Assembly (NCBI GenBank): GCA_028293125.1
Contig: JAQGPJ010000089.1
Location: 62,001 to 126,000 of the forward strand
Origin: Verrucomicrobiales bacterium
GTDB lineage: Bacteria; Verrucomicrobiota; Verrucomicrobiia; Verrucomicrobiales; V1-33
Direction: 5' to 3'
Length of the DNA: 64,000 nt
Below, piece by piece: positions 3,040 to 53,486 of the stretch (positions are counted from its first letter, which is position 1; the number at the start of each line of letters is the position of its first letter). A program made the position numbers and the translations under genes. Below the pieces are notes generated by a model. It did no database searches. It saw only the letters and a program-made list of their open reading frames with translations, and had not been told where the DNA came from.

Positions 3040-3809
3040 TGCCGGTGCCGATGCCGATGAAAAATTCCCAACTCCCTTCCCTGAATGCCGGCGAGCTGGC
3101 GGTGCATGTGACGGGCATCACCAAAGCCTTTGGCAAAGGAAATGCCAGCACCCTCGCCCTGAAGGGGGCGGATTTCGAGGCGCAGCTGGGCGAGCTTCAG
3201 CTCATCATCGGGCCGTCCGGCTGCGGGAAAACGACGCTGCTCTCCGTCATTGCCGGCACCCTGGTGCCGGACGCCGGGGACGTGCGGGTGCTGGGGGAAA
3301 TGCTGACGGAGCTGGGAAAAGGGGAGGTCACGGATTTCCGGCGGCGGTTCATCGGGTTCATCTTCCAACAGTTCAATCTGATCCCGACCCTGAATCTGAC
3401 CGAGAACGCCAGTGTCCCCCTGCTGCTCAACGGAGCCGGCCGGCGGAAGGCGGAAAAGGCCGCGGATGAAATGCTGGAGCGCGTGGGCCTGGCCGGACGC
3501 GGGAAGCATTACCCCCGGCAGCTGTCCGGCGGGCAGCAGCAGCGTGTCGCCATCGCGCGGGCGCTGGTGCACGATCCCCGGCTGATCATCTGCGATGAGC
3601 CGACCTCGGCCTTGGACAGGGAGACGGGCCATCAGGTCATGGAACTGCTCCAGGGCGTGGCCCGGCAGGCCGACCGTTCGGTGATCGTGGTGACCCATGA
3701 TCCCCGCGTTTATGAATTTGCGGACCGCATTGCGGCCATGGAGGACGGCAGGGTGCTGGGCAACCGGCCCGCCGCCGAAGCCTTGCCGGAAATGGCGGCC
3801 CACCACTGA
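3039..3809 (+). CDS. ABC exporter ATPase, DevA/MacB type
   Basis: Nucleotide-binding subunit of 256 residues that powers the exporter. With the start at 3039, Walker A is GPSGCGKT (58-65), the Q-loop Gln is at 110, the signature LSGGQ is at 162-166, Walker B is LIICDE (182-187), and a switch His lies in VVTHDP. The pattern [17 protein letters not shown] is typical of the MacB/LolD/DevA branch. The ATG at 3039 overlaps the permease stop; in-frame ATGs at 3051 and 3057 are possible alternative starts. The HlyD adaptor gene follows after 23 bases, so all three are probably one operon. Confidence 0.92.
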
Positions 3810-32704: not shown

Positions 32705-34039
32705 ATGTTTGAAATCCGGGACAAGCCGAAGGTGGTGGAGAAGGCGCTGCTCATTGGGGCCTATTTTGACCGCAGGGAGAAGGACGAGGCCGCCAGTCTG
32801 CTGGAGGAGCTTCACGAACTGGTGGGCACACTGGGAATCCCCGTGGAGCACGCGGAACTGGTGATGGTCAAGGACAGCAACCGGAAATACCTGACCGGAA
32901 AGGGCAAGGCCCACGAACTGATCGCCATGGCCAAGGAGAAGGGCTGCGATGTCATCATTTTTGACAATTCTCTCGCTCCCATGCAGCAGCGGGCCTGGGA
33001 GAACGAGGGCGGGGTCACGGTGATCGACCGCGAGGAGGTGATTCTGGATATCTTCGCCATGCGCGCCCGGACGGCAGAGGCGCAGCTCCAAGTGGAACTG
33101 GCGCGCCAGCAGTATGCACTTCCCCGGCTGGCCCGCATGTGGGACCACTTGGACCGTCAGGGCGGCGGCGGAGGGTCAGGCGGCATGGGTGCCGCGCGCG
33201 GTGAGGGGGAAAGCCAGTTGGAAACGGACCGCCGGCTGGCACGCCGGAGGATTGACGCCCTGCGCCGGCAGCTGGTGGAGGTCCGGCAGCAGCGCCTGAC
33301 TCAACGCAAGGAGCGGCAGCGCGTGCCTGTGCCCGCTGCCGCCATCGTGGGCTACACTAACGCCGGCAAATCCACCCTGCTGAACACCATCACAGGGGCG
33401 TCGGTGGTGGCCGAGGACAAGCTTTTTGCCACCTTGGACCCCACGACGCGCAAGGTGCAGCTCCCCGACGGCCAGCAGCTGCTGCTGACCGACACCGTGG
33501 GCTTCATCCGCAACCTGCCGCACCGTTTGGTGGAATCCTTCAAGGCCACGCTGGAGGAGGCTGCACTGGCGGACTTTCTGGTTCATGTGCTGGACGCCAG
33601 CCAGGAGCGCGTTTTTGAATTTTACGAAACCACCATGGCCGTGCTCAAGGAACTCGGCGCGGATGATAAAAAAATGCTGGTGGTGCTGAACAAAATCGAC
33701 CTTCTGCCCGCTGATCGCAGAAACCAGGTGGCCGCCCATTTCAACCAGCCGGCCACCATGGTTTCCCTGAAAACCGGCGAAGGCCTGCCCTTGCTGCAGG
33801 AACGCCTCAGCGAGATGATGCTGGACCGTACGCGCCGGGTGAACCTGCGGCTCCCGCAGTCGGAATTCGGCCTTATCAGCCTGATCCACCAGCAGGGCAA
33901 AATCCTGAAGCAGGACTACGATGGCAACGACGTGCTTGTGGACGCCATCATCCCCCGCCGCTACGAGGCCCAGATTGAGCGCTATCTGGACCCCCCCGTC
34001 CCTGCGCGCGCATTGGAGGCGTGGGAGGCGGCCCCGTAG
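32705..34039 (+). CDS. hflX: GTPase HflX
   Basis: Ribosome-associated GTPase of 444 residues that can split stalled 70S ribosomes. The HflX N-terminal domain (ALLIGAYFDRREKDEAASLL, VKDSNRKYLTGKGKAHEL) is followed by a Gly-rich linker (GGGGGSGGMG). The GTPase domain has G1 GYTNAGKST (216-224), G3 DTVGFIRNLP and G4 NKID. The C-terminal domain ends at about residue 444. All motifs are intact. Confidence 0.96.
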   Translation: MFEIRDKPKVVEKALLIGAYFDRREKDEAASLLEELHELVGTLGIPVEHAELVMVKDSNRKYLTGKGKAHELIAMAKEKGCDVIIFDNSLAPMQQRAWENEGGVTVIDREEVILDIFAMRARTAEAQLQVELARQQYALPRLARMWDHLDRQGGGGGSGGMGAARGEGESQLETDRRLARRRIDALRRQLVEVRQQRLTQRKERQRVPVPAAAIVGYTNAGKSTLLNTITGASVVAEDKLFATLDPTTRKVQLPDGQQLLLTDTVGFIRNLPHRLVESFKATLEEAALADFLVHVLDASQERVFEFYETTMAVLKELGADDKKMLVVLNKIDLLPADRRNQVAAHFNQPATMVSLKTGEGLPLLQERLSEMMLDRTRRVNLRLPQSEFGLISLIHQQGKILKQDYDGNDVLVDAIIPRRYEAQIERYLDPPVPARALEAWEAAP

Positions 34040-34443: not shown

Positions 34444-37400
34444 ATGAGAATTTTAATACGGATCTTTTGTTTTGTATTTTTAAATTGTCTTTTTGTCGCG
34501 GCCAATGCCGGTGTGCCTTTTACGGCCCATATGCCAAGAGGAGATCATTCACTGCCTTACAGTTTCACGGGTAAAACGCCGTCCAATGGTGAAAATGATG
34601 CCGGAATTTCAAGAAATGGGAATTTCATAAGCAAATACTCCTTTGGAGTGCCCGATTGCGCGTCCGTTGGTTCCTTGACCAGTGATGATCAAATTTTAAT
34701 GCCGGACAACGGAGAGAGGCTGCTCCGTTCCAGTGACGCACATCCGGTTTTTTTCAAAGGTCTGCTTAAAGCGGCAAACTTGGAAAGCGCTGAAGTTACT
34801 GTTTTTTATAACAGTGATAGTGACATTCCGATAACATCGAACGGTTACACGGCGTCTGGAAACACCGTGAAGTTCACTCTTAACCAAGCCCCGGCAACCG
34901 GCGTGGAGCTGATGGTGGTGAACAACACCAGCCGCAATTTTATCAACGGGGCTTTCAGCAACCTGCCGCAGGGGCAGTTGGTGAAGCTGAGCCAAGGTGG
35001 TCTGGTGCACAGTTTTGTGGCCAATTATTATGGAGGCACCGGCAATGACCTTGTTTTGGTCTGGGCTCAAACCAGAGTCGTTTCATGGGGCGCGAACTCC
35101 AATGGAGAGCTTGGCGACGGCTCGGAGTCGGACCGCCGGGCGGCGGTCCTGGTGAGCGACGCCGCAAGCGCCTCCGCGCTTTTCGGTAAAACCGTTCTGT
35201 CCATCTCCTCCGGCGGCGGGCACAGTCTGGCGTTGTGCTCGGATGGGTCAATTGCCGCCTGGGGCAGCAACTCCAGTGGCCAGTTGGGTAACAATAATTC
35301 CAGTGGCCCCAGTTACCTGCCCATTACGGTAAGCACCGACCAGAGCAGTTCCTACCTTTCCGGTAAAAGAGTTGTGGCGGTCTCCGCCGGCCAAAGTCAC
35401 AGCCTTGCGTTGTGCTCGGACGGCACCGTTGCCGCTTGGGGCAGCAATTACAATGGAGCGGTGGGGGATGGCTCAGCCGAATCCCGGTCCTTCCCGGTGG
35501 CGGTGTATGCGGCCGACAATGACTCGGCGCTTTTCGGGAAAACCGTCGTCGCCATCTCCGCGGGGAACGGCCACAGTCTGGCGCTGTGCTCGGACGGCAC
35601 TGTCGCAGGGTGGGGGGAGTTTGGCGGCAATGAGGGACAGGGCCGTCTCATACCAATCGCCGTGAACGATTCCGAAGGTTCCGCCCTTTTCGGAAAGTCC
35701 GTCGTGGCCATCTCCGCCGGCGGCAGTCACAATCTGGCGCTGTGCTCGGACGGCACTGTCGCTGCGTGGGGCTATAACTTCAATGGCCAGTTGGGGGGCA
35801 CTCCGGGGAGAGACCTCTATAACCCGATCGCGGTCGACACTTCGAAGGGCTCCGCGCTTACTGGAAAAACCGTCGTGGCCATCTCCGCCGGCGACAGCCA
35901 CAGCCTGGCGCTGTGCTCGGATGGCACCCTTGCCGCCTGGGGCAGTAACTCGTTTGGCCAGCTTGGCAACAGCAGCATCAGTGTGGAGGGCAGTTTTTAT
36001 CCCATTGCTGTAAGCACGGAGCAGGGGAAGTCCGCTCTTTTCGGGAAAACTGTCGTGGCGGTCACGGCAGGAGGGAATCACACTCTGGCGCGGTGTTCGG
36101 ATGACACGGCCGCCGCCTGGGGCGGCAATGGACGCGGGCAGCTGGGTGACAACACCTTGGTGGAACACTACGATCCGGTGGCGGTTAACAGTGCCGAGGG
36201 TGTCTCCGCACTCTTTGGAAGGAGGGTGATGCATCTCTCCGCGGGGAATCAGCACAACCTGGCGCTGGCCGCCACGCCGTCCACAACGCCAGTCCCGACA
36301 GTAGCCTTTGAGCAGGCGGTCTCCACAGCGTCGGAAAGCGGCGGGACCGTGACGGTGGAAGTGGCCCTGTCCGGTCCTGCCCCCAATGACATCACGGTGC
36401 CCTTTACGGTGTCGGGCACGGCCACCAGCGCGGACGCCACGGTGGCTGCCTCCCCGCTGGTGATCCCCGCGGGAGCTTCCGGCGGCTTTATCTCCGTGGT
36501 CATCACGGACGACACTTTATACGAAAATGCCGAGACCGTGATTCTCACTCTGAACACACCCTCCGGAGCCGGACTGGGAAGCACCGTGCGGCACACGCTG
36601 ACCATCACCGAAAACGAGCAGATACCCACGGTGGCCTTCGCCCAAGTGGCCTCCACAGCGGTTGAGAACGCCGGGACCGCGACGGTGACGGTGGCTCTCT
36701 CCGGCCCCAGTTCCTCAAATATCACGGTGCCTTTCACCGTGTCCGGCACAGCCACCGGGGCGGACGCTACGGTGGCATCGTCACCGTTGGTGATCCCCGC
36801 CGGCGCCTCCGGCGGCACGATCGCGGTGACCATCACCAATGACACGCTTTATGAGAGTGCCGAAACCGTGATTCTCAATCTGGGCACCCCCTCCGGAGCC
36901 AGCCTGTCAACTTTGCCGCAGCACACGCTGACCATCACCGACAACGAGGCAATGCCCACGGTGGCCTTCGCCCAGGCTGCGTCCACAGCAGGCGAAAACG
37001 CCGGGACCGTGACCGTGGCTGTGGCTCTCTCCGGACCCAGTTCTTCAAATATCACGGTGCCTTTCACGGTGTCCGGCACAGCCACCGGGGCGGACGCCGC
37101 TGTGACATCATCACCGCTGGTGATTCCCGCCGGAGCCTCCAGCGGCACGATAGCGGTGACCGTTACGGATGACACCCTTCATGAGGGTGCCGAGACGGTG
37201 ATACTCACCCTTGGCACACCTTCCGGAGCCGGATTGGGGAGCGCCGCGCGGCATACCCTGACTATAACCGACAACGAGTCAGTGCCTGTGGTGGCCTTTA
37301 TCCAAGCGGCCTCCACTGCGGGGGAAAACGCAGGCACTGTGACCGTGGCAATGGCGCTGTCCGGTGCCAGCTCCACGGATATCACCGTGCCCTTCACGGT

Positions 37401-40400
37401 TTCGGGCACAGCCACCGGCGCGGATGCCACTCTGGCGTCCCCGCCGGTGGTGATCCCCGCCGGGGCCTTGGGCGGGACCATCTCCGTGGCTATCACCGAT
37501 GACACGCTTTATGAGAGCACCGAGACCGTGATCCTCACCTTGGGCACGCCCTCCGGAGCCGGACTGGGAAACACCGTGCGGCATACGCTGAGCATCACCG
37601 ACAACGAGACAGTGCCCACGGTAGCCTTTGCGCAGGCCGCGTCCACAGTGGGGGAAAACACCGGGACCGTGACGGTGGCGGTTGGCCTGTCCGGGCCCAG
37701 CTCTTCGGAGATCACAGTCCCCTTCACTGTGGCTGGCACCGCCTCTGGCGCGGATGCCACGGTGGCGGGTCCGCCGCTGGTGATTCCTGCCGGAGCCTCC
37801 GGCGGCACCATCTCCGTGGCTGTCACCGACGACGTCATTTACGAAAACACCGAGACGGTGATTCTCACTCTCGGCACGCCTTCAGGGGCCGGGTTGGGAA
37901 GCGTGGCGCAGCATACCCTGACCATCGCCGACAACGAGTCAGCGCCCACAGTGGCCTTTTCGGCGGCGGCCTTCACGGCTGAGGAAAGTGCCGGGACCGT
38001 GACGGTGGCGGTGGCGCTGTCCGGATCCAGCGCCTCGGACATCACCGTGCCGTTCACTGTATCAGGAACCGCTTCCGGGACGGATGCCGCCGTGGCGGCC
38101 TCCCCGCTGGTGATCCCCGCCGGAGCCTCCGGCGGCATTATTTCCGTGGCCGTCACCGATGACACCCTCTATGAGAGCGTTGAGACGGTGATTCTCACTC
38201 TCGGCACGCCCTCCGGGGCGGAGTTGGGACGCGTGGTGCGGCACACGCTGACCATCACCGACAACGAGGCGGCACCCACGGCGGCCTTTGCGGAGGCCGC
38301 CTCCACAGCGGGGGAAAGCGCGGGGATGGTGACTGTGGCGGTGACTCTTTCCGGCCCCAGCGCCTCGGAAATCACTGTGCCCTTCACGGTTTCGGGCACA
38401 GGCACCAGTGGCGACGCCACTGTGGCGTCCTCCCCACTGGTGATCTCCCCCGGCACCTCCGGTGGCACCATCTCCGTGGCCATCACGGATGATACCCTTT
38501 TTGAAAGCCCTGAGACGGTGGTTCTCACCTTGGGCACGCCTTCCGGAGCTGGACTGGGAAGTGTGGTGCGGCATACGCTGACCATTACAGACAACGAAGG
38601 AGTGCCCACAGTGGCTTTCGCGGAGGCAGCCTCCACCGCAGGAGAAAACGCTGGGACGGTAACCGTGGCGGTGGTGCTGTCCGGTTCCAGTTCCTCTGAT
38701 ATCACAGTGCCGTTCACGGTGTCCGGCACAGCCACCAGCGCGGATGTCACTGTGGCGACCTCTCCGCTGGTGATTCCTGCCGGAGCCTCCGGCGGGGCCA
38801 TCTCCGTGGCCATCGCCAATGACACGCTTTACGAGAATGCCGAGACGGTGGTTCTCACCCTGGGCACACCCTCCGGAGCGGGGGTGGGACGCGTGGCGCA
38901 GCACACCCTGACCATCACCGACAACGAGGGAGTGCCCACGGTGGTGTTCGCTCAGGCGTCCTCCACGGGGGGGGAAAACGCCGGGACAGTGACCGTGGAG
39001 GTGGCTCTTTCCGGGCCGAGCTCTTCGGATATCACCGTGCCGTTCACCGTGTCGGGCACGGCCAGCGGCGCGGACTTTACCGTGGCGTCCCAGCCGCTGC
39101 TGATCCCCGCCGGATCCTCCGGCGGCACCATTGCCGTGACGGTCACCGATGACACCCTTTATGAGAGCGCTGAGACCGTGATTCTCACTCTCGGCACGCC
39201 TTCAGGGGCGGGGCTGGGAATTACCGTGAGCCATACCCTGACCATCACGGACAATGAAGAAGCGCCTACAGTGACCTTTGCGCAGGCATCCTCCACGGTA
39301 GGGGAAGGCGCGGGAACTGTGACGGTGGCGGTGGCTCTTTCCGGTCCCAGCGCCTCGGAAATCACGGTGCCGTTCACAGTATCCGGCATGGCCACTGGTG
39401 GCGACGCCACAGTGGCATCCTCTCCGCTGGTGATTCCTGCTGGAGCTTCCGGTGGGACTATTGCGGCAACCATTACTGATGATAACCTTTATGAGGGCGC
39501 CGAGACGGTGGTTCTCACCCTGGGCACGCCCTCCGGCGCGGGGTTGGGAAGCGTGGCGCAGCACACCCTGACCATCACCGATAACGAGGGAGTGCCTACG
39601 GTGGCTTTCGCGGAGGAATCCTCCACGGCAGGGGAAAATGCCGGGACCGTGACTGTAGCGGTGGCTCTTTCCGGCCCCAGCTCTTCGGGAATCACCGTGC
39701 CGTTCACAGTGGCTGGCACCGCCTCCGGGACGGATGCCACGGTGGCGGTTTCTCCGCTGGTGATCCCTGCCGGAGCCTCCGGTGGCACCATCTCCGTGGC
39801 CATCACCGATGACACACTTTACGAGAGCGCCGAGACCTTGGCTCTCACTCTGGGCACACCCTCCGGGGCCGGTCTGGGAAGCGTGGTGCGGCACACCCTG
39901 ACCATCACCGACAACGAGGAAGCGCCCACGGTGGCCTTTGCCCAGGCGGCGTCCACAGTGGGGGAAAATGCCGGGTCCGTAACCGTAACGGTGGCCCTGT
40001 CCGGCCTCAGTTCCTCGGACATCAGCGTGCCGTTCACGGTGGGAGGCACGGCTGCCGGCACGGATGCCGCGGTGGCGTCCTCCCCGCTGGTGATTCCCGC
40101 CGGAGCTTCCGGCGGCACCATCTCCGTGACCATTACAGACGACACACTTTATGAGAGCGCCGAGACCTTGGCTCTCACTCTGGGCACACCCTCCGGAGCC
40201 GGTCTGGGAAGTGTGGTGAGACACACGCTGACCATCACCGACAACGAGGCGGTACCCTTGGTGGCCTTTGCGGAAGCGGTCTCCACGGCAGGGGAAAATG
40301 CCGGGACCGTGACCGTGGCGGTGGCTCTTTCCGGCCCCAGCGCTTCGGAAATCACGGTGCCGTTCACAGTGGCTGGCACCGCCACCGGCGCGGACGCCAC

Positions 40401-43400
40401 GGTGGCGGTTTCTCCGCTGGTGATCCCTGCCGGAGCCTCCGGCGGCACGATCACCGTGGCCGTCACCAACGACACTCTTTATGAAACTGCCGAGACCGTG
40501 GTGCTCACCCTTGGCACACCCTCCGGAGCCGGGTTGGGAAGCACCGTAAGGCACACGCTGACCATCACGGATAACGAAGGGGTGCCCACGGTGGCGTTCG
40601 CGGAGGCCGCCTCCACGGTTGGGGAAAGCGCCGGAACCGTAACTGTGGCGGTCGCCCTTTCCGGTCCCAGCGCCTCGGAAATCACCGTGCCCTTCACTGT
40701 GTCGGGCGCAGCCACCAGTGGCGACGCCACCGTGGCGTTGTCGCCACTGGTGATCCCTGCCGGAGCCTCCGGCGGCATCATTCCGGTGACCATCACGGAT
40801 GACACTGTTTATGAAACTGCCGAGATGGTGGTTCTCACCTTGGGCACACCCTCCGGAGCCGGGTTGGGAAGCACCGTAAGGCACACGCTGACCATCACGG
40901 ATAACGAAGGGGTGCCCACGGTGGCGTTCGCTCAGGCGGTCTCCACGGCGGGGGAAAATGCCGGGACTGTGACTGTGGAAGTGGCTTTGTCCGGTCGCAG
41001 CTCCACGGATGTCACGGTGCCGTTCGCCGTGTCGGGCACGGCCACCGGCGCGGATGTCACCATGGCATCCTCCCCGCTGGTGATTCCTGCCGGAGCTTCC
41101 AGTGGGACTATCTCTGTGGCTATCACGGACGACATTTTATACGAAAATGCCGAGACCGTGATTTTCACCTTTGGCACCCCCTCCGGAGCCGGATTGGGAA
41201 GCGTGGTGCGGCATACCCTGACTATAACCGACAACGAGACAGTGCCTGTGGTGGCCTTCACTCAGGCGGCCTCCACAGTGGCGGAAAATGCTGGAACAGT
41301 GGCTGTGGCGGTGGCCCTTTCCGGCCCCAGCTCCACGGACATCAGCGTGCCCTTCACACTATCAGGAACCGCCTCCGGGACGGATGCCAGCGTGGCGTCC
41401 CCGCCGCTGGTGATCCCCGCCGGAGGCTCCGGCGGCACCATCTCCGTGACCATCACGGACGACACCCTTTACGAAAATGCCGAGACCTTGATTCTCACCC
41501 TTGGCACCCCTTCCGGAGCCGGACTGGGAACCACCGTGCGGCACACGCTGAGCATCACTGACAACGAGGCGGCACCTACGGTGGCCTTTGCGGCGCCCAC
41601 CTCCACGGCAGGGGAAAGCGCCGGAACCGTAACCGTGGCGGTGGCCCTTTCCGGCCCCAGCGCCTCGGAAATCACCGTGCCCTTCACACTATCAGGAACT
41701 GCTTCCGGGACAGATGCCACCGTGGCGGCCTCACCGCTGGTGATTCCCGCCGGAGGCTCCGGCGGCACCATCTCCGTGACCGTCGCCGAGGACACCCTTT
41801 ATGAGGGTGCCGAGACCGTGATTCTTACCCTCGGCACGCCCTCCGGAGCCGGTCTGGGAAGCGTGCCGCAGCACACCCTGACCATCACCGACAACGAGGG
41901 AGTGCCTACAGTGGCCTTTGCCCAGGCGGCCTCCACAGTGGAGGAAAGCACTATAACAGTGAATGTGGAGGTGGCCTTATCCGGCCGCAGCTCCATAGAC
42001 ATCACGGTGCCTTTCACGGTGTCGGGCACGCCCACCATTCTGGGCACGACGGCGGTGGCGTCCTCCCCGCTGGTGATTCCCGCCGGAGCCTCCGGTGGCA
42101 CCATCTCCGTGGCCGTTACCGATGACACGCTTTACGAGAATGCCGAGACAGTGATTCTCACCTTGGGCGAACCCTCCGGAGCTGGTCTGGGAAGTGTGGT
42201 GCGGCACACGCTGACCATCACCGACAACGAGGCGCCTCCCACAGTAGCCTTCGCCCAGGCAGCCTCCTCAGCAGGGGAAAATGCCGGGACCGTGACCTTG
42301 GCGTTGACGCTGTCCGGATCCAGCGCTTCGGAAATCACAGTGCCCTTCACGGTGTCGGGCACGGCTACCGGGGCAGATGCCGCCGTGGCGTCCTCCCCAT
42401 TGGTGATCCCTGCAGGATCCCCCAGCAGGACTATCTCCGTGACCGTCGCGGATGACAGGCTTTATGAAAATGCCGAGACCGTGATTCTCACTCTGGGCAC
42501 GCCCGCCGGAGCCGGACTGGGAAGCGCCGTGCAGCACACGCTGACGATTACGGATAATGACCCGCAGCCGTCCGTCAGTCTGGCCGCGGGTGGAACGCTG
42601 GCTGAAAACGGCGGGCCGGCGACGGTTACGGTGAGTCTCAATACGCCAAGCGGGCTGCCCGTGACGGTGGATCTGAGTACGGGCGGTTCGGCGGTCAAAA
42701 ATGTGGATTATGAGGTTTCCGGCTCCACGGTGACTATTCCGGCGGGCGTGACCGATGCCACTTTCACAGTTTCACCCATCAATGACAAATTGCCGGAAGG
42801 GGACGAAACCATTGTTCTGACTCTGACAAATTCCGTTAATGCCCAGCTGGGAAATCCCTCTGCCCGCAACGTCGTTCTCACGGACGACAACGATGCGGCT
42901 CTCAATGTTCTGACCGTTACCAGTTCCGGACCGGTGACGGAAGGTGGAACGGCGGCCCTCACATTCACGGTGGCGCTGGCGAGGGCAGGGGATGGTCCTG
43001 TCTCCGTGCAATACTCCTTTTCAGGCACGGCCACTCCGGGTGTGGACTTCACGGGAGCTGGTGGAATGCTGACCTTCACCGGATCCCAGCTGGAGAAAAC
43101 CGTGAGTGTGAACGTGCTGGATGACTTTGTTTTTGAGCCTGCGGAAACCGTGGTCCTGACTCTATCCTCTCCCTCGGGAGGAGTGATCACCAATGGGACG
43201 GCAGTGGGAACCCTTCTTGAGAATGATCCAATGCCGGTCATCACCTTTTCCCATGCGGGGACGTTGTCCGACGCGGGACCGGATGCCGTGAGCGCGGTGT
43301 TCAATGTTCAATTAAGCGGTCCCAGTGCAACCGTTGTAACCTTGCCATGGAACCTGGTGGGCGGAAGTGCCAGGGCTGGAGAGGATTTTGTCGGCGGCTC

Positions 43401-44907
43401 CGGTGTTCTGACGGTTGATCCGGGAACAACATTCTCCCGGATCCAAGCGCCAGTCATTACGGACAACCTGATTGAGGGAGCGGAGGCGTTCACTCTGCAG
43501 CCGGGCAATCCCGAAGGAGCCATCCTGTCCGGTCCCGGGGAAGGATGGTTCCTCAGCCAGACGCTGCCGGCAGCCACGGAGGCGGGATCGGAGTACGGGC
43601 AGAGCAGTTCCATGCAGGAGGACGTGCTGGCGGTTGCGGCTCCGGAGGGCAATGGGCGAAAAGGGGAGGTCCTGGTGTTTTCCCGCACGTCCTCCGGATG
43701 GGAGGGGCCGCAGGCCCGGCTAAGTCACTCGGACGGGGTGCGGGGCGATGTGTTCGGACACAGCGTCGCCGTGTGGGGGGAGTGGCTTGTGGCCGGAGCG
43801 ATCGGCCGGGACGGAGCGGCCTCCGACAGTGGAGCCGCCTACATTTTCCGCCGAAGCCGCGATGGCTGGACCCAGTTTCAGCGGCTGGATGCTCCCGGCG
43901 CGCGGGAAAGTGATTATTTTGGATGGGCGGTCGCCATTCATAAAACCACCCTCGCCGTGTCCTCCCGCCTGCGTACGACGGGCAAAGGGCCGCGGGGCAA
44001 CGAGGGCGCAGTGTATGTTTATGATCTGGTGAACGGAGTGTGGAAGTTGAGCCGGGAAATCACAGCGGATGGAACCACCGCCCAGTCCCTGGGGGGAAGC
44101 CTGGCACTTTTCGGGGATACATTGGCGGCCGGAGCCCCTGATGATGACACCCTCAGGGAGGATGCCGGGGCGGTTTACCTCTTTGAGCGGAATGCCGGAG
44201 GCACCAAAGCCTGGGGACAGGTCGGGAAATTTCAGAACACCAGCGGTCCTGCTTTGTTGCAGCACTTTGGCGGAGCGGTGAGCCTGTGGGGGAAAACCCT
44301 CGCCGTGGGAAGCGCCGCGGGATCCGCTGTGAATATTTTTGATAAAACCCCGGCGGGCACTTGGGAAAACACCGCTGTCCTCAATTGGAATCAGGCCATC
44401 CCGGCCGGAAATTTCAGTTCCTCCCTGCACCTCTCGGGGGATACGCTGGCGGTGGGCGCTCCCTGGGCCGGCGGTGCGGCGGGGAAAGGAAATCTTTATT
44501 TCTACCAGCGGGGTGCCACCCGCGAATGGTCGCAGGTTCAATTGCTGGACGGTTCAGCGGTGGTTCCCGGCGGCGGATTCAGTGCGGGCCCGGCCGGCTG
44601 GGGCAGTGAATTCGCGGTGGGCAGCGTGGAGGGGAGCAATGGGAAAACCCATATTCTGCGCAGCACGTGGGCCACAGCCTTCATTGATGAGGGGCCTCCC
44701 GCCTCCCATGTCATCCTTCAGCCGGCCGCCGGTGGAATGGTTCTTGTCTGGGATCCCATTCCCGGCGCTCTCCGATATGAGGTTGAGGGCAGCGACGATC
44801 TGCTCAACTGGCAAAGCCTGGCCGACGTTTATCCGCCAGCGGTTTCATGGACCGTTCCCTCCGGCTTTGGAGAACGGATGTATTTCCGGATAAGGTCCCG
44901 TTTCTGA
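34444..44907 (+). CDS. Giant secreted RCC1 / Calx-beta / FG-GAP protein
   Basis: A 3,487-residue exported protein. A signal peptide (about 1-23, IFCFVFLNCLFVAANAG) precedes an N-terminal module that ends NYYGGTGNDLVLVW, a pattern familiar in verrucomicrobial surface proteins. Residues 208-612 hold seven RCC1-like blades (VVSWGANSNGELGD through AAAWGGNGRGQLGD), each with HSLALCSDG, so a full seven-bladed propeller. Residues 618-2708 are 19 Calx-beta repeats of 110 residues (ITVPFTVSGTATGADATV, TLYESAETVILTLGTPSGAG, HTLTITDNE). Three divergent Calx-beta domains follow, then FG-GAP-like repeats (about 3035-3400) and a short beta tail (YEVEGSDDLLNWQ...YFRIRSRF). The acidic DDTLYE motifs suggest calcium-dependent stiffening. 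No LPXTG, PEP-CTERM or transmembrane anchor is visible. Adhesion is inferred. The first 600 bases are AT-richer than the rest. Confidence 0.9.
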   Translation: MRILIRIFCFVFLNCLFVAANAGVPFTAHMPRGDHSLPYSFTGKTPSNGENDAGISRNGNFISKYSFGVPDCASVGSLTSDDQILMPDNGERLLRSSDAHPVFFKGLLKAANLESAEVTVFYNSDSDIPITSNGYTASGNTVKFTLNQAPATGVELMVVNNTSRNFINGAFSNLPQGQLVKLSQGGLVHSFVANYYGGTGNDLVLVWAQTRVVSWGANSNGELGDGSESDRRAAVLVSDAASASALFGKTVLSISSGGGHSLALCSDGSIAAWGSNSSGQLGNNNSSGPSYLPITVSTDQSSSYLSGKRVVAVSAGQSHSLALCSDGTVAAWGSNYNGAVGDGSAESRSFPVAVYAADNDSALFGKTVVAISAGNGHSLALCSDGTVAGWGEFGGNEGQGRLIPIAVNDSEGSALFGKSVVAISAGGSHNLALCSDGTVAAWGYNFNGQLGGTPGRDLYNPIAVDTSKGSALTGKTVVAISAGDSHSLALCSDGTLAAWGSNSFGQLGNSSISVEGSFYPIAVSTEQGKSALFGKTVVAVTAGGNHTLARCSDDTAAAWGGNGRGQLGDNTLVEHYDPVAVNSAEGVSALFGRRVMHLSAGNQHNLALAATPSTTPVPTVAFEQAVSTASESGGTVTVEVALSGPAPNDITVPFTVSGTATSADATVAASPLVIPAGASGGFISVVITDDTLYENAETVILTLNTPSGAGLGSTVRHTLTITENEQIPTVAFAQVASTAVENAGTATVTVALSGPSSSNITVPFTVSGTATGADATVASSPLVIPAGASGGTIAVTITNDTLYESAETVILNLGTPSGASLSTLPQHTLTITDNEAMPTVAFAQAASTAGENAGTVTVAVALSGPSSSNITVPFTVSGTATGADAAVTSSPLVIPAGASSGTIAVTVTDDTLHEGAETVILTLGTPSGAGLGSAARHTLTITDNESVPVVAFIQAASTAGENAGTVTVAMALSGASSTDITVPFTVSGTATGADATLASPPVVIPAGALGGTISVAITDDTLYESTETVILTLGTPSGAGLGNTVRHTLSITDNETVPTVAFAQAASTVGENTGTVTVAVGLSGPSSSEITVPFTVAGTASGADATVAGPPLVIPAGASGGTISVAVTDDVIYENTETVILTLGTPSGAGLGSVAQHTLTIADNESAPTVAFSAAAFTAEESAGTVTVAVALSGSSASDITVPFTVSGTASGTDAAVAASPLVIPAGASGGIISVAVTDDTLYESVETVILTLGTPSGAELGRVVRHTLTITDNEAAPTAAFAEAASTAGESAGMVTVAVTLSGPSASEITVPFTVSGTGTSGDATVASSPLVISPGTSGGTISVAITDDTLFESPETVVLTLGTPSGAGLGSVVRHTLTITDNEGVPTVAFAEAASTAGENAGTVTVAVVLSGSSSSDITVPFTVSGTATSADVTVATSPLVIPAGASGGAISVAIANDTLYENAETVVLTLGTPSGAGVGRVAQHTLTITDNEGVPTVVFAQASSTGGENAGTVTVEVALSGPSSSDITVPFTVSGTASGADFTVASQPLLIPAGSSGGTIAVTVTDDTLYESAETVILTLGTPSGAGLGITVSHTLTITDNEEAPTVTFAQASSTVGEGAGTVTVAVALSGPSASEITVPFTVSGMATGGDATVASSPLVIPAGASGGTIAATITDDNLYEGAETVVLTLGTPSGAGLGSVAQHTLTITDNEGVPTVAFAEESSTAGENAGTVTVAVALSGPSSSGITVPFTVAGTASGTDATVAVSPLVIPAGASGGTISVAITDDTLYESAETLALTLGTPSGAGLGSVVRHTLTITDNEEAPTVAFAQAASTVGENAGSVTVTVALSGLSSSDISVPFTVGGTAAGTDAAVASSPLVIPAGASGGTISVTITDDTLYESAETLALTLGTPSGAGLGSVVRHTLTITDNEAVPLVAFAEAVSTAGENAGTVTVAVALSGPSASEITVPFTVAGTATGADATVAVSPLVIPAGASGGTITVAVTNDTLYETAETVVLTLGTPSGAGLGSTVRHTLTITDNEGVPTVAFAEAASTVGESAGTVTVAVALSGPSASEITVPFTVSGAATSGDATVALSPLVIPAGASGGIIPVTITDDTVYETAEMVVLTLGTPSGAGLGSTVRHTLTITDNEGVPTVAFAQAVSTAGENAGTVTVEVALSGRSSTDVTVPFAVSGTATGADVTMASSPLVIPAGASSGTISVAITDDILYENAETVIFTFGTPSGAGLGSVVRHTLTITDNETVPVVAFTQAASTVAENAGTVAVAVALSGPSSTDISVPFTLSGTASGTDASVASPPLVIPAGGSGGTISVTITDDTLYENAETLILTLGTPSGAGLGTTVRHTLSITDNEAAPTVAFAAPTSTAGESAGTVTVAVALSGPSASEITVPFTLSGTASGTDATVAASPLVIPAGGSGGTISVTVAEDTLYEGAETVILTLGTPSGAGLGSVPQHTLTITDNEGVPTVAFAQAASTVEESTITVNVEVALSGRSSIDITVPFTVSGTPTILGTTAVASSPLVIPAGASGGTISVAVTDDTLYENAETVILTLGEPSGAGLGSVVRHTLTITDNEAPPTVAFAQAASSAGENAGTVTLALTLSGSSASEITVPFTVSGTATGADAAVASSPLVIPAGSPSRTISVTVADDRLYENAETVILTLGTPAGAGLGSAVQHTLTITDNDPQPSVSLAAGGTLAENGGPATVTVSLNTPSGLPVTVDLSTGGSAVKNVDYEVSGSTVTIPAGVTDATFTVSPINDKLPEGDETIVLTLTNSVNAQLGNPSARNVVLTDDNDAALNVLTVTSSGPVTEGGTAALTFTVALARAGDGPVSVQYSFSGTATPGVDFTGAGGMLTFTGSQLEKTVSVNVLDDFVFEPAETVVLTLSSPSGGVITNGTAVGTLLENDPMPVITFSHAGTLSDAGPDAVSAVFNVQLSGPSATVVTLPWNLVGGSARAGEDFVGGSGVLTVDPGTTFSRIQAPVITDNLIEGAEAFTLQPGNPEGAILSGPGEGWFLSQTLPAATEAGSEYGQSSSMQEDVLAVAAPEGNGRKGEVLVFSRTSSGWEGPQARLSHSDGVRGDVFGHSVAVWGEWLVAGAIGRDGAASDSGAAYIFRRSRDGWTQFQRLDAPGARESDYFGWAVAIHKTTLAVSSRLRTTGKGPRGNEGAVYVYDLVNGVWKLSREITADGTTAQSLGGSLALFGDTLAAGAPDDDTLREDAGAVYLFERNAGGTKAWGQVGKFQNTSGPALLQHFGGAVSLWGKTLAVGSAAGSAVNIFDKTPAGTWENTAVLNWNQAIPAGNFSSSLHLSGDTLAVGAPWAGGAAGKGNLYFYQRGATREWSQVQLLDGSAVVPGGGFSAGPAGWGSEFAVGSVEGSNGKTHILRSTWATAFIDEGPPASHVILQPAAGGMVLVWDPIPGALRYEVEGSDDLLNWQSLADVYPPAVSWTVPSGFGERMYFRIRSRF
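36295..42567 (+). repeat. Nineteen tandem 330-bp coding repeats
   Basis: Each unit encodes one 110-residue Calx-beta domain beginning PTVAFAQAAST. Eighteen are exactly 330 bp; the eighteenth has one extra codon (TPTILGTTAVASS), giving 6,273 bp. Similarity between neighbours is very high. For example, 40513-40601 and 40843-40931 are identical over 89 bases, one period apart. This points to recent unit duplication or gene conversion. The array ends sharply at 42568, where a divergent domain (QPSVSLAAGGTLAENGG) begins. Confidence 0.92.
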
Positions 44908-44994: not shown

Positions 44995-45056
44995 TTCGAC
45001 TTTGGTAAATTAAGTAATAACTGATTGATAATCAACTAGTTAAATCCAAAGTCGAA
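44995..45056. repeat. 62-bp element with 11-bp inverted ends and AT-rich core
   Basis: TTCGACTTTGG (44995-45005) and CCAAAGTCGAA (45046-45056) are perfect inverted repeats. The 40-base core is strongly AT-rich and contains the palindromes TGATT-GAT-AATCA and AACTAGTT. It lies 88 bases after the giant gene. It could be a terminator-like structure, a recombination site or a miniature element. The core has no coding potential. Confidence 0.65.
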
Positions 45057-45878: not shown

Positions 45879-48359
45879 GTGCCCTCCGTTCTCCCGTCCC
45901 TGCTTACTGATTACCCCACCCCGGCCGGGGTGTGGGATGAGATGGTCTCCACCGGGGGCACCCTGCGCCCGCACTGGGAGCGGCTGGCGGGCTCGCTGAA
46001 CCGGCTGGGGGTTTCCGGTCTCACCGCCTGCGCCGGGCAGGCCCGGCAGTCGATCGCGGAGAACGGGGTGACCTACAATGTGTATGGGGATCCGCGCGGC
46101 ATGGACCGCCCGTGGGAGTTCGACCCGGTGCCGTTTGTCATTCCCCGGCATGAGTGGGAAGTGCTGGAGAAGGGTCTGATCCAGCGCGCCCGGCTGGTGA
46201 ACGCCGTGCTGAGTGATCTTTACGGCCCGCAGACGCTGCTGCGCTCCGCCGCGCTGCCTCCGGGCGTCATTCTGGGGAATCCGGCGTATCAGGTGGCCTG
46301 CCACGGCCTGCACCCTCCGGAGGACACTTGGCTGCACCTGTATGCCGTCGATTTGGCGCGTGGGCCTGACGGCGGGTGGTGGTGCTTTGCCGACCGCACG
46401 CAGTCCCCGTCCGGATCCGGCTACGTGCTGGAGAACCGCATCGTGCTGTCCCGCAGCCTGCCGGATGAGATCCGCGATCTCCATGTGCAGCGGCTGTCGG
46501 GATTTTACCGCGTCTTCCGGGAAAATCTGCTGCGCCAAGCCCCGCGCCGTGCCGGCACCGACGAACCGCCCCGCGTGGTCCTGCTGACCCCGGGCCCTTT
46601 GAATGAGACGTATTTCGAGCACGCCTACCTGAGCCGTTACCTGGGTTTCCCGCTGGTGGAGGGCGGCGACCTGACCGTCAGGGACCGGCGGGTGTTTCTC
46701 AAAACCCTGGAGGGCCTGCAGCCGGTGGATGTGATCCTGCGCCGCGTGGACGACAGCTTCTGCGATCCGCTGGAGCTGCGGCAGGATTCCTTCCTGGGCG
46801 TGCCGGGACTGCTGGAGGCCATGCGCGAAGGGAATGTCAGTGTGGCCAATCCCATCGGATCCGGCCTTGCGGAATCCCCGGCGCTCATGGCCTTCATGCC
46901 CGCCCTGTGCCGCCGCCTGCTCGGGGAGGACCTGCTGCTGCCCAACACCGCCACCTGGTGGTGCGGCCAGCGGCGGGAGCGGGAGCATGTGATCTCGAAT
47001 CTGGACCATTTTGTGATCAAAGCCGCGTTCTCCGAAAGGTCGGCACCGCCCATCTTTCCCTCCGAACTCACCCGGGTGGAGAAGGCCAAATTGATCGAGC
47101 GCATCCGGCGGAGCCCGCATCATTTCGTGGGGCAGGAGAAAATCACTCTCTCCGAGGCTCCGGTGTGGACGGGCTCGGGCCTGAAACCGCGCCCCATCGC
47201 CCTGCGGGTCTATCTGGCGGCGGCAGGCGACAGTTTTGTGGTCATGCCGGGCGGGCTCACGCGGGTTTCCGTCTCCCCCGCCATTCCCATCGTCTCCATG
47301 CAGAGCGGCGGCGGCAGCAAGGACACGTGGGTGCTGTCCGACGGCCCTGTCTCCCATCAGTCCCTGCTGGCGCCTGACCCCGGGAGGCGGCCAGCGGCTC
47401 CAGCGGTGACCGATCTTTCCAGCCGCGTGGCGGACAATCTCTTCTGGCTGGGCCGGTATGCCGAGCGCGTGGAGGTGCTGGTGCGGATGATGCGCGTGCT
47501 GATCACCCGGCTGACGGATGACAATGTGGCCGAAGGTCCGGAGACCACCGGCCTGCTGATGCGCCTGCTGGTGCCACTGGAGATTCTGCCCAAGGCCCCG
47601 GCCAAACCGCTGCTCATGGAGAAGTATGAGCGGGAGGCGCTGAATATTCTCTTTAAAAAGGACCGCCCGGGCGGTCTGCACCATGGACTTTCCCGCCTGC
47701 GCCACGGTGCCTGGCTGGTGCGCGACCGGCTGTCGCTCGACACTTGGCGCATCCTGACGGAACTCCAGCAGGAACTGCCCCCGGAGGGCACGGTCATGGC
47801 GCTGGATGACTCCCTTGGGCTGCTGAACCGGCTGGTCCGCACCCTTTCCGCCTTCTCCGGCATGGTGATGGAGAATATGACGCGCGGCCACGGCTGGCGG
47901 TTTCTGGACCTTGGCCGCCGGCTGGAGCGGGCGGCGGCGCTGCTTCTGATCGTGCGTGGCTCCCTTCAGATCGACCCCGCCGGACAGTATCTGCTGATGC
48001 CTCTGCTGGATATCGCCGACAGCGCCATGACCTACCGCCGCCGTTACTACTCCCACGCCCAGCGCGATGGGGTGCTGGACCTGCTGCTGACAGATGAGAC
48101 CAATCCCCGGTCCGCCCACTTCCAAATCCAGACCATCCGCGAGCACCTGGCGCACCTCCCCCCCATGCCCGGCCGCTCCAATCCCGGCCTCAAGCACCGC
48201 ATGACCGAGGAGCTCGGCAGCCGCCTCCGCGGGATGGACACTGAGGCTCCCCCCGAAACCCTGACCCCGGTGCTGACGGAGCTCGTGTCCTCCGTGTGGC
48301 AGCTGTCGGACCGCCTGGCACATGTTTACTTCAGCCACGCGGGGGCCCGGATCATCTGA
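45879..48359 (+). CDS. Circularly permuted ATP-grasp / alpha-E fusion protein
   Basis: An 826-residue protein from a GTG start; a stop codon lies directly before it. The N-terminal half is a circularly permuted ATP-grasp (DUF404/DUF407 type). Its signatures are VWDEMVSTGGTLRPHWERLA, GVTYNVYGDPRGMDRPWEFD, VVLLTPGPLNETYFEHAYLS, VSVANPIGSGLAESPALMAF and LPNTATWWCG. The C-terminal half, from about residue 510 (DLSSRVADNLFWLGRYAERV), is an alpha-E helical domain. By family, such fusions occur with a transglutaminase-like protein in a predicted peptide-ligation/tagging system. No transglutaminase gene is adjacent here. The substrate is unknown. Confidence 0.9.
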   Translation: MPSVLPSLLTDYPTPAGVWDEMVSTGGTLRPHWERLAGSLNRLGVSGLTACAGQARQSIAENGVTYNVYGDPRGMDRPWEFDPVPFVIPRHEWEVLEKGLIQRARLVNAVLSDLYGPQTLLRSAALPPGVILGNPAYQVACHGLHPPEDTWLHLYAVDLARGPDGGWWCFADRTQSPSGSGYVLENRIVLSRSLPDEIRDLHVQRLSGFYRVFRENLLRQAPRRAGTDEPPRVVLLTPGPLNETYFEHAYLSRYLGFPLVEGGDLTVRDRRVFLKTLEGLQPVDVILRRVDDSFCDPLELRQDSFLGVPGLLEAMREGNVSVANPIGSGLAESPALMAFMPALCRRLLGEDLLLPNTATWWCGQRREREHVISNLDHFVIKAAFSERSAPPIFPSELTRVEKAKLIERIRRSPHHFVGQEKITLSEAPVWTGSGLKPRPIALRVYLAAAGDSFVVMPGGLTRVSVSPAIPIVSMQSGGGSKDTWVLSDGPVSHQSLLAPDPGRRPAAPAVTDLSSRVADNLFWLGRYAERVEVLVRMMRVLITRLTDDNVAEGPETTGLLMRLLVPLEILPKAPAKPLLMEKYEREALNILFKKDRPGGLHHGLSRLRHGAWLVRDRLSLDTWRILTELQQELPPEGTVMALDDSLGLLNRLVRTLSAFSGMVMENMTRGHGWRFLDLGRRLERAAALLLIVRGSLQIDPAGQYLLMPLLDIADSAMTYRRRYYSHAQRDGVLDLLLTDETNPRSAHFQIQTIREHLAHLPPMPGRSNPGLKHRMTEELGSRLRGMDTEAPPETLTPVLTELVSSVWQLSDRLAHVYFSHAGARII

Positions 48360-51090: not shown

Positions 51091-52893
51091 TCAATCCCCG
51101 GTTTTCAGCACCTGCACAAAAGCCTCCTGCGGGATGTTCACCTTGCCGATCATCTTCATGCGCTTTTTGCCCTCCTTCTGCTTGTCGAGCAGCTTGCGTT
51201 TGCGGCTGATGTCACCGCCATAGCACTTGGCGGTCACGTCCTTGCGGCTGGCGCTGCGGGATTCACGGGCGATGATCTTGCCGCCGATGGCTGCCTGGAT
51301 AGCGACGGTGAAGAGCTGCTGGGGAATCACCTCCACCAGCTTTTTGGCGAGAATGCGGCCCCGGCCCTCCGCCTTGTCACGGTGGACGATGGTGGCGAAG
51401 GCATCCACCGGGTCTCCATTGATGAGCATCTCCATCTTCACCAGCTTCTCGGCGCGGTAGCCGGCGTTTTCGTAATCCATGCTGCCGTAGCCACGGGTGA
51501 TGGATTTCAGCTTGTCGTTGAAATCGACCAGAATCTCGTTCAGCGGCAGCGTGCAGGACAGCATCACGCGGCGGTCGTCCAAGGTCTCCGTGTTCTCCAG
51601 CTGGCCGCGCTTCTCAGCCACCAGCTGCATGATATCGCCAATGCATTCGTTGGGAATCAGGATAAAGGCCCGCACGATCGGCTCGCGGATTTCGGCGATG
51701 GTGCCGGCGTCGGGCAGGTAGGTGGGATTGTCCACCTTCAGCTCCGTGCCGTCGGACAGGGTAACCTCGTACACCACGCTGGGGTAGGTGGAGATAATGT
51801 CCATGTTGTACTCCCGGCGCAGGCGCTCGGTCACGATCTCCATGTGCAGCAGACCCAGGAAGCCGCAGCGGAAGCCGAAACCCAGGGCGGCGCTGCTTTC
51901 CTGCTGGAAGCGGAAGGCGCTGTCGTTGATCTGGAGCTTGCCCATGCCCGCCTTGAGCTGCTCGAAGTCGTCGGAATCGATCGGATAAATGCCGCTGAAA
52001 ACCATGGGCTGAATTTCCTTGAAGCCGGGCAGGGGATCCGGGCACATGCGGGTGGTCTCGGTGATGGTGTCGCCGATTTTCACCTCGCCGGTGGATTTCA
52101 TGTTGGCCACCACAAAACCCACATCCCCCGGGCCGAGCATATCGATGCGGCACTGCTTGGGGGTGAAGATTCCGACCTCCTTGACTTCGTAGGATTTGTT
52201 CGTGGACCACATGGTCACATTCTGGCCCTTGCGGATGGTGCCGCTGACCACACGCACATACATGATCACGCCGCGGTAGGAGTCGAACAGGGAGTCGAAC
52301 ACGCTGGCCCGGAGATAACGGTCGTCCGGCACCTGCGGCGGCGGCACGCGCTCGATGACGGCCTCCAGAATCTCCTCAATGCCGATGCCCATTTTGGCGC
52401 TGGCCTTGATGGCCTCCTCATGGGGAATGGACAGGATGTCCTCCAACTGCTTGTAAACCGCCGGCAGATTGGTGCTTGGCAGGTCGATCTTGTTGATGAC
52501 CGGAATGATGGTCAGCTTCTGCTGGTTTGCCAGGTGCAGGTTGGCCACCGTCTGGGCCTCCACCCCCTGGGCGGCGTCCACCAGCAGCACCGCGCCCTCA
52601 CAGGCGGCGAGGGAACGGCTGACCTCATAGGAGAAATCGACGTGGCCGGGGGTGTCGATCAGATTCAGCTTGTAGTCCTGCCCGTTTTTGGCACGGTAGA
52701 TCATCGTCACTGGATGGCACTTGATGGTGATGCCGCGCTCGCGCTCCAGATCCATGGAATCCAGCAACTGGTCCTGCATTTCGCGTTTGGTGACCGTTAG
52801 GGTGGTCTCGAGCAGGCGGTCCGACAGGGTGGTCTTCCCGTGGTCAATGTGGGCGATGATCGAAAAGTTGCGGGTGTTCGGGACGACAGTCAT
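51091..52893 (-). CDS. lepA: Elongation factor 4
   Basis: Ribosomal GTPase that promotes back-translocation or initiation-linked remodelling. The start at 52893 ([20 protein letters not shown]) gives 600 residues, the family length; the frame open further upstream is not coding. Motifs: G1 AHIDHGKTT (14-22), [13 protein letters not shown]3 [12 protein letters not shown]4 NKID. The LepA-specific C-terminal domain carries [20 protein letters not shown] and [18 protein letters not shown] promoter candidate TTTACA, 16-base spacer, TAGGTT lies about 30-60 bases upstream. Confidence 0.96.
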
Positions 52894-53486
52894 TCGGAAA
52901 AGGCGGGGAGGAGGGGACACGTAACCTAATGCCGCCAGCGTCCTTGTAAAGGAAAAGACAAGGACGGGGCGGGCGGAGTGAACCGTATCCGGGGGGGCAG
53001 CCTGCCAGTGCTGCCATTGCGTCGAACAGCCATTGGGTGGTGCGGTGCCTTTGATCGATTTCTGTGCAGCTTCTCTTTCCGCTCCTGATGGATCCAAGGC
53101 TTCACAGACTCCATGAGTGGAACGGAGCCAATCCACCGCCCTTCCTCCGATGACGCAAAGGCGGGTGCAGGAGCTGACTGTCCCGCCATGTGCGGGAGCG
53201 GAGCAAAATTCCACAAGTGTCTCTCCAGGCTGCATCACAAAGCATGGTTGGCGGAGAGCGGGCTGAATCCGGATCTGCCGCTGGAGTCCGTGCTGGGTTG
53301 AAATATTGGCATACACCGCAGTGGGTTAGAGACCGCTCCCGGCAACCACCAGCCGCAAACGGTGCCCGCCGCCCGCATGTCCGCTGAGAGACAAGCCGTC
53401 GGTTTCCCGCAGGTTTGTCCCTGCGGGAAACCAGTGCGGGTTGACTGGAAATCACCTTGGATGCCGCACCCCGGCGGTGGAAACCG
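52894..53486. other. Intergenic region between lepA and the sulfatase gene
   Basis: This 593-base stretch holds the lepA promoter near its left end. A perfect 13-bp hairpin lies at 53401-53432 (GGTTTCCCGCAGG / CCTGCGGGAAACC, six-base loop), 55 bases after the sulfatase stop on that gene's downstream side; no T-run follows. Frames of 60-117 codons exist on both strands but have Arg/Cys-rich, low-quality translations, so no gene is called. Confidence 0.5.

Follow-up and report, generated by a model that had tools for sequence, protein, structure and literature searches.

A giant Verrucomicrobiota protein with two seven-bladed propellers, a Calx-beta array between them and a recurrent domain near each end

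In the window (the whole stretch of 64,000 nucleotides that was analysed), a single open reading frame on the + strand, 34444-44907, encodes a product of 3487 amino acids in which an RCC1-like propeller and an integrin-type propeller stand on either side of a long array of Calx-beta domains. Our main reading, to which we give a probability of about 0.6, is that the protein is secreted and stays at the cell surface as an adhesive fibre, stiffened by Ca2+, held or exported by its C-terminus and tipped by the RCC1 propeller. We infer that the protein works as an adhesin or a contact fibre. Its modules are all already known or recurrent; what makes it a new variant is the order in which they follow, the RCC1 propeller first, then the Calx-beta rod and finally the integrin-type propeller.

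From its N-terminus, the protein is composed of a signal peptide, an N-terminal β domain (NDOM), seven RCC1 blades, 19 plus three Calx-beta domains, seven FG-GAP_2 blades and a C-terminal domain of 74 amino acids. The boundaries of the RCC1, Calx-beta and FG-GAP-like parts were read by eye in the translation. The features are:

34444..34509, + strand: Sec-type signal peptide, residues 1-22, MRILIRIFCFVFLNCLFVAANA (sequence reading: Arg in the n-region, hydrophobic core, A-x-A-like end).
34510..34797, + strand: residues 23-118, without recognised domain (low model confidence; G+C 0.47, below the rest of the gene).
34798..35064, + strand: N-terminal β domain NDOM, residues 119-207, ending YYGGTGNDLVLVW (model strands with pLDDT of about 77-98; homologues).
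35065..36285, + strand: RCC1-like β-propeller with seven blades, residues 208-614 (Pfam; model; Foldseek and VIA-align; Cys positions).
36289..42561, + strand: 19 near-identical Calx-beta domains of 110-111 amino acids each, residues 616-2706 (repeat finder, Pfam, translation).
42562..43551, + strand: three divergent Calx-beta domains, residues 2707-3036 (Pfam; PDB match to the CBD domains of the Na/Ca exchanger).
43552..44682, + strand: integrin-type FG-GAP_2 β-propeller with seven blades, residues 3037-3413 (Pfam; model; matches to integrin alpha heads).
44683..44904, + strand: C-terminal domain, residues 3414-3487, candidate sorting or anchoring tag (profile and homologue alignments).

An earlier note on this DNA had already described most of this layout, and its description holds. 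The signal peptide that it claimed is present by sequence reading; its seven RCC1 blades are exactly seven in the translation, with scores above the Pfam cut-offs (252.7 bits against 150 for the RCC1-like model PF25390, RLD, and 164 against 21.7 for PF00415). The count of 19+3 Calx-beta domains is exact in the translation, and 22 stretches are recognised with the Calx-beta model PF03160, which scores 654 bits (cut-off 27, E 1.7e-200). The integrin-like FG-GAP region is recovered as FG-GAP_2 (PF14312, 122.8 bits, E 6e-36), four stretches exceeding the Pfam cut-off individually. The note missed two recurrent domains, however: the β domain that precedes the RCC1 propeller (residues 119-207) and the C-terminal domain (3414-3487). 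NCBIfam matches to "sodium/calcium exchanger 1" and "PPK2" lie under the cut-offs and are due to the Calx repeats or to chance.

Structure prediction, proposed in the same note as a check, yields both propellers with good confidence. The first AlphaFold2 model covers residues 24-725 and is based on an alignment of 19 related cassettes; pLDDT values of about 77-98 across most of residues 118-610 make NDOM and the RCC1 propeller confident. The propeller superimposes on RLD2 of HERC2 (Z 52.1, rmsd 1.8 over 360 amino acids) and also matches RCC1 and UVR8. This likeness is one of fold only, in an exported bacterial protein, and need not extend to the Ran exchange function of RCC1.

In the second AlphaFold2 model (residues 2702-3487), the second propeller is mostly confident, while the Calx-beta and C-terminal parts are unreliable because few sequences align there. 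This propeller matches the heads of integrin alpha chains, starting from integrin residue 1, with Z of 34-38 and an rmsd of about 2.8 over about 345 amino acids (best match: Z 37.9, rmsd 2.7 over 340). Reading of the translation by eye shows that DxDxDG Ca2+ loops are absent from all seven FG-GAP blades, and the propeller is thus integrin-like in fold only. The lists of structural matches for both models are filled by propellers and therefore do not show how NDOM and the C-terminal domain fold. The picture of a rod with a propeller at each end is upheld by these models and by the matches to solved structures: two seven-bladed propellers flank an array of 22 Calx-beta domains.

NDOM, which is about 89 amino acids long and lies immediately N-terminal to the RCC1 blades, has no convincing match in a Pfam scan. 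The propeller that follows has one cysteine in each of blades 1-6 (C265, C324, C382, C434, C491 and C551). Species genomes of bacteria and archaea were scanned for the NDOM-RCC1 couplet with a profile made from a six-row alignment. The scan returned 213 relatives, the best 80 of which correspond to 67 loci, all of them from records assigned to Verrucomicrobiota lineages. When these 67 loci are taken together with an earlier set, the number of blades detected after NDOM is exactly seven in 190 of 222 cases. A cysteine occupies the same position of the blade motif in 94% of the 851 blade motifs of NDOM-associated RCC1 proteins, a figure that is biased upward, since the pattern used for recruitment includes the cysteine; it is 68% in a set recruited without the pattern. 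RCC1 proteins without NDOM have a lysine at this position in 78% of cases, and a cysteine in none of their six commonest classes. NDOM followed by a seven-blade RCC1 propeller is a widespread and recurrent cassette of Verrucomicrobiota, not a one-off.

The couplet also occurs in tandem, with up to eight copies per open reading frame (L209, L219 and L224). The proteins encoded at these loci and at L168 and L214 are giant "beads on a string" in which the couplets are spaced by about 670 amino acids. They share with the protein described here an NDOM followed by seven RCC1 blades with cysteine in most of them, but the couplet is repeated and the profile used here detects no Calx-beta domain in these proteins.

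The earlier note saw no recognisable anchor. Indeed, neither a transmembrane anchor nor a known sorting motif is recognised in the open reading frame by sequence reading, Pfam or NCBIfam; what was overlooked is the recurrent domain formed by the last 74 amino acids, which is carried by exported proteins. Unrelated proteins encoded in the same genome have C-termini that can be aligned with these residues. An eight-row profile matches 50 times in this genome at E ≤ 0.01, and among the best 30 of the 50, 29 end at most 11 residues from the stop codon (22 of 23 once the seven that are rows of the profile are discounted). Similarly, 26 of 30 loci in eight genomes from other families, orders and classes end at most 12 residues from the stop. 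Within the phylum, 54 of the 145 genomes carry the domain. Pfam and NCBIfam hold no model for it and gave no relevant match, including to PEP-CTERM, LPXTG and T9SS tails, and comparison with PDB sequences returned partial matches at chance level only. Thus, neither component that the note missed has a model in the libraries searched (Pfam and NCBIfam for the C-terminal domain, Pfam for NDOM).

The proteins that carry the domain appear to be exported: by a simple hydrophobicity rule, 19 of 20 carriers have an N-terminus resembling a signal peptide, versus 2 of 155 internal control segments. The rest of these proteins varies in domain content (LRR, Ig, LamG, PA14, F5/8, lamin-tail with CotH, TSP3). 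In its position and its carriers, the C-terminal domain behaves like sorting tags such as PEP-CTERM and T9SS tails, and it may be such a tag, the alternative being a plain capping or binding role. A search for SprA_N, of type IX secretion, gave no match in this genome and none in the control genomes either. We regard as tentative, and on balance doubtful, the wider proposal that the last 74 amino acids belong to an as yet undescribed type of C-terminal domain, found throughout Verrucomicrobiota, which sorts proteins or anchors them at the surface and is served by a dedicated outer-membrane machinery, that the giant protein is one of some 50 clients in its genome, and that the NDOM-RCC1 cassette is among the main surface-exposed binding heads of the phylum.

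Across the loci L137-L166 and L234-L263, the consensus of the domain resembles GxxYxVQRSxDLxxWxx...RxFYRV, and 55 of these 60 loci have it within about 12 residues of the stop, for the most part in proteins with a signal peptide. Two proteins of the same genome, encoded on the - strand at L122:10244-11623 and L128:1138-2514, have C-termini that resemble PEP-CTERM, so that a sorting system of the exosortase type probably coexists there with the other C-terminal domain. At L121, in the same genome, the sequence reads N from about position 9100 to its end; this stretch adjoins the gene of a protein with Calx-beta and the C-terminal domain.

The behaviour of the C-terminal domain bears on the rival that survives best. 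According to this alternative, the protein is a released or loosely bound component of the matrix, or a scaffold, with propellers and a rod that attach to extracellular polysaccharide and a C-terminal domain that binds or caps instead of anchoring. The domain is indeed also found on proteins of the LamG, PA14, F5/8-type, Ig, LRR and CotH/lamin-tail kinds, which are possibly freely secreted, and the lack of a recognised transmembrane anchor or sorting motif would fit as well. However, a general binding module is expected at internal positions too, yet 48 of 53 matches end at most 12 residues from the stop once the profile's own rows are set aside. We therefore consider a matrix role unlikely, if still worth weighing.

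A surface-held fibre would be built as follows. Sec would export the protein first, and the C-terminal domain would then retain it at the outer membrane or pass it across. The integrin-type propeller would sit at the base, near the cell, and Ca2+ ions within the Calx-beta domains and at their junctions would stiffen the array; the resulting rod would measure very roughly 100 nm, the length estimated for 22 domains of this kind. At the tip, NDOM and the RCC1 propeller would form the head that binds the target, be it another cell, a polymer or a partner protein.

The stiffening by Ca2+ is suggested by the sequence of the array. When the repeat unit is aligned to the CBD1 and CBD2 domains of the Na/Ca exchanger, acidic residues are kept at the positions which we take to be the Ca2+ ligands of CBD1. 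Columns 16, 49, 75, 79, 82 and 108 of the 110-residue unit are E, D, D, E, E and D, respectively, in 18-19 of the 19 units; column 74 is D in 14 of the 19 and column 110 is E in 17. Eight columns are strictly invariant, and four of these eight are putative ligand columns (hypergeometric p about 7e-4). The array is also very acidic, with 181 D+E versus 18 K+R in 2090 amino acids and a pI of about 4.05. The conservation of the putative ligand columns and the acidity of the array make it likely that the Calx-beta domains bind Ca2+.

Tandem Repeats Finder (TRF) reports 18.9 copies of a 330-bp unit between 36304 and 42545, over about 6.2 kb. Pairwise identity among the 19 units is 68-86% at the protein level and 72-85% at the DNA level, and the mean identity at codon positions 1, 2 and 3 is 0.83, 0.89 and 0.60. 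Such a pattern indicates that purifying selection acts on the array as coding DNA. Identity hardly falls with the distance between units, from 0.78 for adjacent ones to about 0.755 for those farthest apart, and the most similar pairs are found among units 11-14, which indicates that the array has grown by more than simple duplication of neighbours.

The selection within the array argues against a second alternative, in which the gene is a drifting and recently assembled mosaic, made of shuffled modules in a lineage prone to repeat growth, with little selected function as a whole. In its favour, neither four congeners nor the other relatives searched gave a counterpart of the full architecture, so that conservation of the entire protein offers no argument for a set role, a point that also counts against the main reading; the congener genomes, on the other hand, are just 68-89% complete. 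The N-terminal cassette is apparently the only one among the many RCC1 proteins of this genome, the 5' end of the gene is lower in G+C, and tandem growth is common in the phylum. Against these points stand 3487 codons that remain open, and the codon-position pattern and the preserved ligand columns, which reflect purifying selection. A mosaic with little selected function seems improbable to us.

A wrong copy number of the array, or a gene that is a chimera of the assembly, joining separate genes, which the earlier note had named as a possible refutation, is the least credible alternative: the genome is a draft (6.48 Mb, 99% complete, 120 contigs) and the array is long and made of short units, but it contains no exact repeat of at least 100 bp, its units differ in DNA to the extent given above and diverge at third positions, the frame is intact and the gene lies deep inside a contig of 183 kb, so that an artefact is neither obvious nor supported.

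The note called the geometry of the protein unusual. Fusions of RCC1 and FG-GAP propellers in one protein recur in other giants (L097, L106, L107, L208 and L229); what is seen only here is the Calx-beta array between the two, and no other locus examined combines it with RCC1 and FG-GAP. Nor are Calx-beta, RCC1 and FG-GAP combined in any of the papers searched.

The adhesive-fibre reading has a parallel in BapP (EAR30327) from Pseudoalteromonas tunicata, a Ca2+-dependent biofilm adhesin of 1600 amino acids (PMC12153261). BapP also has a Sec signal peptide, an N-terminal β-propeller and tandem β-sandwich repeats of the Calx-beta type with predicted Ca2+ sites (PMC12153261). It differs in that its propeller has five blades and no match to other adhesins, that it contains seven Calx-beta-like repeats as well as Big_9 repeats, that a second propeller is not described (PMC12153261), and that it is a Pseudoalteromonas and not a Verrucomicrobiota protein. 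A seven-blade RCC1 propeller is carried by a pilin of a Saccharibacteria episymbiont (PMC12206443). Integrin-type β-propellers are known in bacteria (PMC3192720) and share with the second propeller, as do the integrin alpha heads, the seven-blade FG-GAP fold; the one described here is of the FG-GAP_2 variety and differs by its missing Ca2+ loops.

The repeats match the Pfam models of both LapA and Calx-beta, and the long, probably Ca2+-dependent extender recalls LapA-type RTX adhesins. Membership of this family was rejected: the LapA match covers only the Calx-beta-like repeats, the protein has a Sec signal, no RTX family matches the open reading frame in Pfam or NCBIfam, and neither a type I secretion signal nor an N-terminal retention module was recognised.

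Epitempin repeats probably form a propeller. Human ADGRV1/VLGR1 has an extracellular part with 35 Calx-beta motifs and seven epitempin repeats, and thus resembles the giant protein by its very long extracellular Calx-beta array (PMC9262510). It is a membrane-anchored GPCR with a propeller of another family, not a homologue over the whole protein, and the resemblance is one of convergent design.

The display of large proteins at the surface of Verrucomicrobiota is little known. The gene brings together a long-adhesin design (two different propellers and a Ca2+ rod), a cassette found across the phylum and an unnamed, almost strictly C-terminal domain. The latter two are the more general findings: NDOM with seven RCC1 blades, most of them with a cysteine, underlies many of the phylum's giant genes, and if the C-terminal domain serves as a tag for sorting in general, the proteins displayed at the surface could be predicted from sequence across the phylum.

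The gene stands alone among housekeeping genes. Upstream is a gene for a GTPase of the HflX type (32705-34039), and downstream are a circularly permuted ATP-grasp/Alpha-E protein (45879-48359), then an aldose epimerase and LepA. No linked secretion genes were seen around the gene, which is thus probably transcribed alone. A scan for promoters and terminators gave about as many sites as in shuffled sequences and no promoter stood out; among RNA elements, Rfam returned SRP RNA and tRNA only. The LepA-like open reading frame (51091-53316, - strand) has about 146 amino acids ahead of its GTPase domain, and its start codon is perhaps wrong. Just downstream of the giant gene, at 44995-45056, lies a perfect inverted repeat of 11 bp, TTCGACTTTGG...CCAAAGTCGAA, with an A+T-rich loop of 40 bp.
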